42,072 nucleotides of DNA from a virus. The stretch spans positions 1-42,072 of IMG/VR virus record IMGVR_UViG_3300046690_000135; one strand, written 5' to 3'. Both the position numbers and the translations under genes were made by a program. The notes under the pieces are model-generated. The model was not told where the DNA came from. It saw only the letters and a program-made list of their open reading frames with translations, and searched no databases. Of the stretch, positions 7,351 to 41,924 are shown one piece after another; the stretch's first letter is position 1; every line of letters starts with the position of its first letter.

Positions 7351-7540
7351 AAGTTCTCAGGAAGATCAGAAGCAATACTTCCTAAGACTCACATCCGGCT
7401 GGTGAGTAAATACAGCGAGGCCGTACCTACTTATTTAGTTTCAGGGAGAATACGGAAACGAAAACTAACGGAGGTTGTAGGTGACTCCGAGATTGGAACC
7501 TTCATTTCTTCGATCTGACGGACGGTGGGATCAAGATGGT
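7351..7540 (+). other. Noncoding stretch with possible small structured RNA
   Basis: No convincing gene on either strand. CTCAC...GTGAG forms a small hairpin near 7389-7407. CGGAG (7469-7473) can pair with CTCCG (7485-7489), which would hide a perfect GGAGG site placed 6 bases before GTG 7481. That GTG opens a frame running into the gene at 7610 through the tRNA-like element. Confidence 0.4.
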
Positions 7541-7605
7541 AGCAATAGTTTAAGGGTAAAACTCCAAGCTCCCGATTGGATTAGAGGTTCGAGTCCTCTT
7601 TGCTC
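7541..7605 (+). tRNA. Degenerate tRNA-Gly-like element
   Basis: The D arm (TAGTTTAAGGGTAAAAC) is almost identical to that of bacterial tRNA-Gly, and the T arm AGAGG-TTCGAGT-CCTCT (7583-7599) is canonical. The acceptor pairs over only 5 bases (AGCAA 7541-7545 with TTGCT 7600-7604). The anticodon stem TCCAA/TTGGA is perfect but closes an 8-base loop GCTCCCGA, which would read as anticodon CCC (glycine). The variable loop is only 2 bases and no CCA is encoded. It is clearly tRNA-derived; whether it is functional is doubtful. Confidence 0.45.
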
Positions 7606-7609
7606 ACTT

Positions 7610-7841: not shown

Positions 7842-7892
7842 GGCAATCCCGATCACACTCGGTTAGTGGTCGGGATATCCGCATGTATTGCC
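7842..7892 (+). ncRNA. Nested hairpin in intergenic region
   Basis: CCCGATCAC (7848-7856) pairs with GTGGTCGGG (7866-7874) over 9 bases including one G-T. Outside it GGCAAT (7842-7847) pairs with ATTGCC (7887-7892). No convincing gene covers the region; a frame at 7811-8011 has no ribosome binding site. It may be part of an RNA element or of a replication origin with the DnaA box downstream. Confidence 0.5.
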
Positions 7893-9458: not shown

Positions 9459-9721
9459 TGGAGCGATCACTTTCACAAGAACGAACCTACTGGGATGAAA
9501 AAGTAGGCGAAGCAATGAGGGAGGTTCAGAAAGCTAAGGAACTTTCTGGGGAATTTCATAAGCTTGCGGACAGAGTTCATTCTAATGAGCCTGTATCACC
9601 TACAGCTGGAGTTGCTCAAAGAGATGTATTGCAGTTCTGTTCAAATCGTCAGGCTCAAATCCATGCTCAAATTGAGAAACTTCAATCCGAAGTTGAACGA
9701 TTGAAAGCTAATCGCCCTTGA
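9455..9721 (+). CDS. Coiled-coil protein, 88 aa
   Basis: ATG 9455 overlaps the preceding TGA (ATGATG; 9458 is the second ATG). Heptad-like helices fill residues 1-45 (ERTYWDEKVGEAMREVQKAK) and 62-86 (QAQIHAQIEKLQSEVERLKA). Probably a small dimeric coiled coil; role unknown. Confidence 0.6.
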   Translation: MMERSLSQERTYWDEKVGEAMREVQKAKELSGEFHKLADRVHSNEPVSPTAGVAQRDVLQFCSNRQAQIHAQIEKLQSEVERLKANRP

Positions 9722-40992: not shown

Positions 40993-41021
40993 TTGACATC
41001 CTCGGGGCGTTGTGGTATACT
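40993..41021 (+). promoter_or_regulatory. Consensus sigma-70 promoter
   Basis: TTGACA (40993-40998), exactly 17 bases, TATACT (41016-41021). The best promoter in the window. Transcription would begin near 41028, leaving a leader of about 360 bases before ATG 41389, and would serve the small early genes through the joint to about 6 kb. Confidence 0.88.
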
Positions 41022-41182
41022 TAGTTTGTAGGAAAGAACTAACAAGAAACGGTTTAATGAATTGAGGAATCTTTAATTGCCTTTAAGGTTAATGAATTCA
41101 GCTAATGTACCTGCTCAAAGGGTTAATTCTTAGCTTGGCTAAATCGGCGGGCTTAGTGGACGCTTTATTTTCCCGGGGTATA

Positions 41183-41221
41183 GGTATTTAGATCGGGTTG
41201 AAAACCCTAGATCTAAATACC
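41183..41221 (+). repeat. 17-pair imperfect hairpin in early leader
   Basis: GGTATTTAGATC (41183-41194) pairs perfectly with GATCTAAATACC (41210-41221). Inside, GGGTT (41195-41199) pairs with AACCC (41203-41207), with a 3-base loop and a 2-base bulge. It lies about 155 bases into the leader. Confidence 0.8.
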
Positions 41222-41226
41222 CCTAC

Positions 41227-41303
41227 TACCTACTAGGTACTGGGGTACACCACCTCTGACCAGGCACGATAGGCCCAGAATACCTACTAGGTACTGCTAG
41301 GTA
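41227..41303. repeat. Paired palindromes TACCTACTAGGTA, likely operators
   Basis: Exact 13-base copies at 41227-41239 and 41281-41293, each TACCTA-C-TAGGTA (a palindrome with one central base), 54 bases apart, plus a half site TAGGTA at 41298-41303. Each is followed by CTG. This is the usual form of a dimeric repressor or activator site, downstream of the promoter. Confidence 0.6.
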
Positions 41304-41388
41304 CTGGAAACGTAATTGCTATTTCAAAAGGGTTTCTCTATTAGAGAAAAACAATTCACACAACCAACACAGAAAAGGAAATAATAAG

Positions 41389-41538
41389 ATGAAGTATCCT
41401 GTAGAAAAAGCAAAGCTCTACTACCCACAGAATGATATTAAGTCTCATCCTGAGTGGGTTCCTGCTGATCCAAAGCAGAATACACTTTATTTCATCTATG
41501 ATGATGAAACCGACACTATCAGTAAGGAAGCACAATGA
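41389..41538 (+). CDS. Small hypothetical protein, 49 aa
   Basis: ATG 41389 after AAAAGGAAATAATAAG. MKYPVEKAKLYYPQNDIKSHPEWVPADPKQNTLYFIYDDETDTI.. is Tyr/Pro-rich. First gene of the main early operon. Its stop overlaps the next ATG at 41535. Confidence 0.6.
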   Translation: MKYPVEKAKLYYPQNDIKSHPEWVPADPKQNTLYFIYDDETDTISKEAQ

Positions 41539-41678
41539 GTGAATTTGACCAACTCAAGATTGCACTTGAGATTGCTCTCGCAGAGTACAACAACTACGTA
41601 TACGAAAATGAATTGGGCTATTCAATTCTCGAAGTATACGAGAAGCATGAAGCAGTAATTCTGAGTATCTGTAACTAG
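41535..41678 (+). CDS. Small helical acidic protein, 47 aa
   Basis: ATG 41535 overlaps the previous stop (CAATGA). MSEFDQLKIALEIALAEYNNYVYENELGYS.. is one long helix with a Tyr-rich middle. The stop lies in the loop and arm of a 7-pair hairpin (AGTATCT 41664-41670 with AGATACT 41677-41683). Function unknown. Confidence 0.6.
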   Translation: MSEFDQLKIALEIALAEYNNYVYENELGYSILEVYEKHEAVILSICN

Positions 41679-41687
41679 ATACTGGTC

Positions 41688-41733
41688 ACCCTGTAGTGGT
41701 AGTAATTGAAAGGTTCGACTCCTTTCCAGGGTA
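41688..41733 (+). ncRNA. tRNA-like minihelix lacking the anticodon arm
   Basis: ACCCTG (41688-41693) pairs with CAGGGT (41727-41732). The T arm AAAGG-TTCGACT-CCTTT (41709-41725) is canonical, and A 41733 stands at the discriminator position. Between 5' acceptor and T arm there is only a 14-base linker with a D-loop-like AGTGGTAG and no anticodon stem. That is the geometry of a tRNA-like domain such as that of tmRNA, without its message part. CCA is not encoded directly (CTCCA follows). Confidence 0.5.
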
Positions 41734-41759
41734 CTCCAACTAAAGAAAGAGGAAACGAA

Positions 41760-41924
41760 ATGAGTTACGAAATACAGCTTGCAATCCGCAAGCTCGAAGC
41801 TATTGCAAATGAGGAACTATATTGGTTCCCTGAAAATGACCCTGATAGTTGGGGTTATTGCATTCGTTGCGATAGAAACTCCATATCCTGTGAATGCTAT
41901 GACACGGAGGATGACAATGGATGA
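41760..41924 (+). CDS. Small cysteine-rich protein, 54 aa
   Basis: ATG 41760 after AAAGAGGAAACG; the frame is open upstream through the tRNA-like element. MSYEIQLAIRKLEAIANEELYW then YCIRCDRNSISCECYD: CxxC and CxC, a small zinc site at the C-terminus. Overlaps the next gene by 8 bases. Confidence 0.6.
   Translation: MSYEIQLAIRKLEAIANEELYWFPENDPDSWGYCIRCDRNSISCECYDTEDDNG

Follow-up and report, generated by a model that had tools for sequence, protein, structure and literature searches.

The McClain model substrates of RNase P, AT1 and pATSer, in which a stack of 12 base pairs (bp) is closed by a T-loop, are cleaved by the RNase P RNA of E. coli (PMC11143913), and the phi80 M3 RNA and the C4 antisense RNA of P1/P7 are phage RNAs that host RNase P cuts via a transfer RNA (tRNA)-like fold (PMC11143913). 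In mitochondrial tRNA punctuation, tRNAs lie between cistrons and their removal frees messenger RNAs (mRNAs) with short leaders; the tRNA-like domain of transfer-messenger RNA (tmRNA) comprises an acceptor, a T-arm and a D-loop and has no anticodon arm; and the 3′ tRNA-like structures of plant viruses represent viral tRNA mimicry recognized by tRNA enzymes. Here, we analyzed a viral DNA stretch of 42,072 nucleotides (nt) from IMG/VR (record IMGVR_UViG_3300046690_000135; the whole stretch is referred to below as the window), in which positions 41688–41733 encode a 46-mer with an acceptor, a T-arm and no anticodon arm. As the best explanation of the findings as a whole, we lean towards a cis-acting punctuation mark at which RNase P cleaves, an example of a more general class in phages.

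A sequence-only reading had proposed a tRNA-like minihelix lacking the anticodon arm at this locus, and our analysis confirms it. When folded in isolation, the 46-mer has precisely the acceptor/T-arm structure as its minimum free energy fold, and a descriptor consisting of a paired acceptor and a consensus T-arm, with a linker of 8–30 nt, matches the window only here and matches none of 300 first-order shuffles of the window. The 6-pair acceptor stem, the TTCGACT loop and the 14-nt D-loop-like joiner are as originally read; the T stem, taken to have 5 pairs, has 6 contiguous ones, so that the 6-bp acceptor and the 6-bp T stem form a continuous 12-bp stack equal to the 7+5 arrangement of tRNA. 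The T-loop conforms to TTCRANY, and the G53–C61 pair is present. Folding energy is only mildly better than that of shuffles (z of −1.44 for the isolated 46-mer and −0.47 with flanks), and energy alone is thus insufficient to reveal the element.

By membership tests, the element is outside the tRNA and tmRNA families. It shares the 12-bp stack, the T-loop and the G53–C61 pair with the tRNA family RF00005 and lacks the cloverleaf, the score and the anticodon arm; ARAGORN does not report it, at the Rfam gathering cut-off RF00005 passes in the window at 7539–7606 only, not at 41688, and neither program finds a tmRNA in the window. Compared with acceptor-T minihelix substrates of RNase P, the element has the 12-bp stack with its T-loop and lacks the 3′ RCCA: A73 is followed by CTCCA in the DNA, and the addition of CCA would have to await 3′ processing. 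Its placement is that of a punctuation element, namely, intercistronic, on the coding strand and 26 nt before an ATG.

Loss of pairing in relatives had been named beforehand as a refuting outcome, and it did not occur: pairing is kept both in relatives of the window and, with wholly different sequence, in other phages. Three relatives (L002, L121, which is the same as L003, and L122) carry the same cassette with a different downstream gene and a 27-nt spacing. Over the 225-nt cassette, they share 13 differences from the window, none of which falls within 41676–41738; by our own arithmetic, a uniform spread of these differences would spare that 63-nt stretch with p ~0.014. The only extra change, T41697C, is in the linker of L122, and both stems are perfectly paired and unchanged in all 3 relatives. 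Compensatory changes, which had been named as support for a functional RNA, are therefore not seen in the window family, where the stems are invariant, and are strong in the crAss-like phages described next.

The link to these phages came from a pattern, GGTAGTNATTN{0,5}AAGGTTCGAYTCCTT, that fixes the linker and the T-arm and leaves the acceptor free. It has 5 matches in all of IMG/VR, namely, 3 contigs of the window phage group, Listeria phage P100 and contig L150. The L150 acceptor, TCTTGGT...GCCAAGA, is paired at 7/7 positions and unrelated in sequence to ACCCTG...CAGGGT, and the P100 acceptor, GACAAG/CCTGTC, forms 5 of 6 pairs. With the L150 element as a BLAST query, we reached the crAss-like phage cr53_1, in which a 42-nt element (TGATAGT AATGGTTAAT TAAGG TTCGATT CCTTA GCTATCA C) lies ~15 nt before the ATG of the DNA primase gene. 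Inspection of the same site in related Crassvirales (Suoliviridae) revealed a T-arm element 15–25 nt before the primase ATG in 11/11 annotated crAss genomes examined. The sequences of these elements are almost wholly different outside the T-loop, and cr53_1 and cr115_1 lack the anticodon domain, which elsewhere is aberrant or enlarged through long insertions; none of the 11 is detected by ARAGORN. Across the acceptor and T-arm of these 11 rows, which come from related phages, 96.2% of the cells are paired compared with 61% in shuffles, and double changes affect 11 of the 12 pairs, with 49 double-change cells compared with 14.9 in shuffles; in slid controls, the paired share drops to 44–50%. 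For the window and crAss elements, convergence is as possible as common descent.

The placement of such elements extends beyond the primase gene. A scan of 11 crAss genomes and the contig of L150 yielded ~10 elements with linkers of ≤32 nt, compared with 0.33 expected from shuffles. An open reading frame (ORF) of at least 60 amino acids (aa) starts 10–45 nt, mostly 14–21 nt, downstream of 44 of the 63 consensus T-arms, compared with 7.9% of random positions (binomial p ~5e-34, uncorrected for the relatedness of the genomes). Before a DNA-polymerase-like gene, the position is kept and the anticodon is not: the leader is armless in W03, W04 and W05, contains a 59-nt element in W06 and an aberrant cloverleaf in W01, W02 and W08, and harbors tRNA-Arg(TCT) in W09. 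This gene is so labeled from our reading of the DNA-polymerase-B-like motifs DIDVASLYPS and NTDG; Pfam gives no polymerase match. The most compact forms are in the leaders of L203 (~1660–1691) and L207, from crAss cr50_1 and cr10_1, where the linker is absent and a consensus T-loop caps an exact 12-bp stem: AAGTACTAGAGG-TTCGACT-CCTCTAGTACTT-A and AAATGTTAGGGG-TTCGACT-CCCCTAACATTT-A. The two differ in sequence, fold far better than shuffles (z of −5.1 and −6.2) and lie ~20 nt before an ORF whose sigma-factor-like label is based on a weak Pfam ECF/HTH match. As a separate observation, a contig of a GC-rich phage (L233; G002 contig, 45383–46787) contains, by our reading, four T-loop hairpins of ~11–12 bp, in which a single base bulges on the 3′ side; all four lie 25–27 nt ahead of an ORF start.

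The window phage itself carries a second tRNA-like element, at 7539, in the acceptor of which two positions are unpaired. The homologous site in L130, L134 and L003 has a perfect acceptor, GAAGCAA/TTGCTTC. Ahead of its homologous gene, L133 instead carries a tRNA-like element of different sequence (GGGCAG/CTGCCC, GAAGG/CCTTC), whose ‘anticodon’ loop measures 13 nt. Across the relatives, acceptor and T-arm pairing is kept at this site and the anticodon is not.

The features of the window are collected in the table below. The window derives from a 42-kb phage encoding a terminase, a major head protein, a DNA polymerase and an endolysin; a WhiB-like gene hints at an actinobacterial host, the two ends of the window are contiguous in L002, and in a megablast search the end of the window matched no named phage. 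The 47-aa ORF upstream of the element belongs to no PHROG or Pfam family. The promoter is separated from the first ORF by a leader of ~350 nt (41030–41389, + strand) that includes strong inverted repeats (GGGGTATAGGTATTTAGATC.../...GATCTAAATACCCC) as well as repeats of CTACTAGGTACTG and that may be a regulatory region or a structured RNA.

Table. Features of the minihelix locus and of the second tRNA-like element in the window
Feature	Position	Strand	Detail	Basis
Promoter-like sequence, strong, at the head of the element's transcription unit	40993–41021	+	TTGACA-17-TATACT	11/12 matches
Upstream ORF	41535–41678	+	47 aa; stop 9 nt before the element	
tRNA-like minihelix	41688–41733	+	46-mer; anticodon arm absent	sequence, fold
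Acceptor, 5′ strand	41688–41693	+	ACCCTG	sequence, fold
Linker	41694–41707	+	14 nt, TAGTGGTAGTAATT; D-loop-like GTGGTAG, without D stem or anticodon arm	sequence
T-arm	41708–41726	+	GAAAGG-TTCGACT-CCTTTC	sequence, descriptor, fold
T stem, 5′ strand	41708–41713	+	GAAAGG	sequence
T-loop	41714–41720	+	TTCGACT	sequence
T stem, 3′ strand	41721–41726	+	CCTTTC	sequence
Acceptor, 3′ strand	41727–41732	+	CAGGGT	sequence
Discriminator-like base	41733	+	A; tRNase Z cut predicted on its 3′ side	sequence (cut: prediction)
Spacer up to the next ATG	41734–41759	+	26 nt; Shine-Dalgarno-like AGAGGAAA	sequence
Downstream ORF	41760–41924	+	54 aa from ATG	
Second tRNA-like element	7539–7606	+	cloverleaf with 8-nt anticodon loop; ~3 nt before ATG 7610	

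We propose that the 46-mer is a natural acceptor-T minihelix within a polycistronic phage mRNA, where it would act in cis as a processing mark. Because the features that persist across these elements, namely, the 12-bp stack, the T-loop and the discriminator position, are those used by the enzymes that process tRNA ends, we infer cleavage by RNase P and tRNase Z. Host RNase P, recognizing the 12-bp acceptor/T stack and the T-loop, would cut on the 5′ side, just ahead of position 41688; the cut after the discriminator would probably be made by tRNase Z or by a different 3′ nuclease. The two cuts would separate the 47-aa cistron from the next message and free the latter with a 26-nt leader that retains its ribosome-binding site. 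More broadly, the element may belong to an unannotated class of phage ‘tRNA punctuation’, in which the decoding parts would have been lost and the stack, T-loop and discriminator would persist. We are evenly divided as to whether phages use a widespread class of anticodon-less elements, from full cloverleaf to bare 12-bp hairpin, as cis-acting marks of this kind, placed ahead of genes for replication and transcription, processed by the host enzymes RNase P and tRNase Z and mostly missed by tRNA gene finders. A punctuation mark presumably cut by RNase P, either alone or together with tRNase Z, fits the data better than a decoding or a decayed tRNA, and the RNase P substrate or processing signal for mRNA envisaged in the sequence-only reading is favored by the position before start codons.

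Several points weigh against this proposal. Bacterial RNase P often prefers a 3′ CCA, and the window element encodes none. A relative, L123, has the homologous downstream gene without the element, which is thus not essential to the genus, and the cultured crAss001, DAC15 and crAss002 have no room for an element before the primase gene. Given that the stems are invariant in the window family, covariation comes from other, possibly non-homologous phages only, and within the crAss set the acceptor 5′ strands were chosen by complementarity, a problem from which the T-stem part is free, and a bulged T was removed by hand in 3 rows. Finally, the P100 copy has one acceptor mismatch and is located within a cluster of tRNAs rather than immediately ahead of a gene.

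The likeliest of the alternatives, though itself an unlikely one, is that the element is a decayed or deleted tRNA gene that has lost the D stem and the anticodon arm and drifts without function. The D-loop-like GTGGTAG and the consensus T-arm indeed suggest descent from a tRNA, odd tRNA-like sequences occur in many tRNA-bearing phages, and a close relative, L123, does without the element. Decay, however, does not sit well with stems that remain perfectly paired and unchanged in relatives despite changed flanks, with unrelated phages sharing the layout with different paired acceptors, with the strong covariation in the crAss leaders or with the non-random placement before start codons. A little less probable is a function in trans, whereby the excised 46-mer would be a free small RNA mimicking tRNA, or a decoy for RNase P, the CCA-adding enzyme, a synthetase, the enzymes that modify the T-arm or a tRNA-targeting defence. 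Many tRNA enzymes would recognize the consensus T-loop and the 12-bp stack, and armless forms are also found inside phage tRNA clusters (L058, L068 and L071). Nevertheless, acceptors and discriminators vary freely between phages, so that no synthetase identity is kept, and recurrent placement 14–45 nt before ORF starts would not be expected of a free RNA; the earlier suggestion of a decoy or synthetase substrate thus gained no specific support.

Somewhat more doubtful still is a leader element that would stay on the mRNA and control translation or stability without RNase P cleavage, either through a protein that binds the T-loop fold or through protection of the 5′ side by the stack. That the elements of many phages lie immediately 5′ of the ribosome-binding region is compatible with such a role, but the invariant stack, the TTCRANY loop and the discriminator position are features of tRNA end processing, and in W09 the same site is occupied by a canonical tRNA-Arg, which would be processed. 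By far the least probable alternative is a phage attachment site (attP) copied from a host tRNA. The T-arm and 3′ end of tRNAs are commonly used as integration sites, but the core of an att site would correspond to the 3′ half of the host tRNA, without retaining a paired 5′ acceptor strand joined through a 14-nt linker. Fragments of tRNA that arise from integration have been discussed previously (PMC9897764).

The layout is not confined to the phages considered above. A search of IMG/VR with a D-loop and T-arm pattern, which biases the set that it selects, recovered many tRNA-like loci that, when sorted by script, include a group without the anticodon arm that keeps the D-arm, acceptor and T-arm (linkers of 25–28 nt) and a smaller, window-like group (linkers of 11–17 nt); linkers of 18–24 nt were not found, and normal tRNAs are at 39–44 nt. 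Under a strict consensus, viral contigs yielded 7 armless loci, and cellular genomes totaling 257 Gb yielded 2. Loci with only 5–6 acceptor pairs (L099, L113, L110 and L071) were not counted as firm, and MAFFT alignments of the mini forms, in which the acceptors were out of register, were left out of the counts. When used singly as BLAST queries, the armless elements L094 and L119 gave no match among phages, and a pattern scan of jumbo phages for further covarying members returned only the two known ones. Among the candidates rejected, weak BLAST matches in Enterococcus EfsSzw-1 and TJE1 are real tRNA-Arg, the one in Microviridae MG945411 is ordinary or unrelated sequence, and a match with a linker of 9 nt in L026 is a normal tRNA.

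Several further loci deserve mention in their own right. The unannotated minihelix-like element of Listeria phage P100 (L138, 2491–2537) is kept in dozens of Pecentumvirus genomes, and its stretch is absent from LMSP-25. The jumbo-phage contigs L027 (4503–4567) and L052 (1795–1858) contain tRNA-like sequences without an anticodon arm, the T stems of which show a seeming bulged T and two compensatory changes (GGA(T)GG/CCTCC and GAG(T)GG/CCCTC); the bulged T recurs in crAss L156–L158. In Streptomyces phage Moab (L139, 2482–2531), the interval between tRNA-Ile and tRNA-Ser contains an acceptor/T element (6+6) that is not annotated. In a cellular contig of Apilactobacillus timberlakei (L136, 1890–1946), a perfect armless tRNA, TGGTAGA/TCTACCA, perhaps in a prophage, lies beside tRNA-Leu(AAG). 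Tandem units were also observed: armless tRNA-like ones, CACCTGT...GCAGGTG, in a Poribacteria metagenome-assembled genome (L137, reverse strand, near 7843–7880), and D-arm/T-arm ones on the reverse strand of L026 (~9480–9600), where the 5′ acceptor strand of the first unit is able to pair with the 3′ strand of the second in a composite of ~110 nt.

In the open-access literature, our search of which covered neither subscription papers nor preprints, we found no report of anticodon-less phage tRNAs, phage tRNA punctuation or tRNA-like leaders in crAss phages. Yutin 2021 (PMC7886860) treated crAss tRNAs as (suppressor) tRNAs and scanned with a cut-off of 35 bits, which would miss many of the present elements. 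If the punctuation proposal is true, phages, including the abundant crAss-like phages of the human gut, would process their replication mRNAs with host tRNA enzymes via stripped-down tRNA mimics, which would add a general layer, not seen before, to gene expression in phages. Certain phage tRNAs regarded as odd or ‘undetermined’ would then be easier to explain, and counts of phage tRNAs would mix decoding tRNAs with processing marks.

The known systems resemble the phage elements in different respects. The likeness to the tRNA-like domain of tmRNA, to which the 46-mer had been compared, stands as regards layout and goes no further; the window element has no mRNA-like domain, tag peptide or recoding features. 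The plant virus structures are 3′-terminal, pseudoknotted and often aminoacylated, whereas the phage elements are internal and unknotted. The phi80 M3 and P1/P7 C4 RNAs are single RNAs rather than a recurrent element before start codons. Mitochondrial punctuation is alike in placement, but the phage elements are mostly unable to decode, and their cleavage is predicted from their features. As for the McClain substrates, the two crAss sigma-like leaders have exactly their layout, and the window element has the same layout with a 14-nt linker added. The McClain RNAs are synthetic, whereas the phage elements are natural and, with no encoded CCA, reside in mRNA leaders; if they are cut as proposed, they would represent in nature the minimal substrate of RNase P established in vitro.
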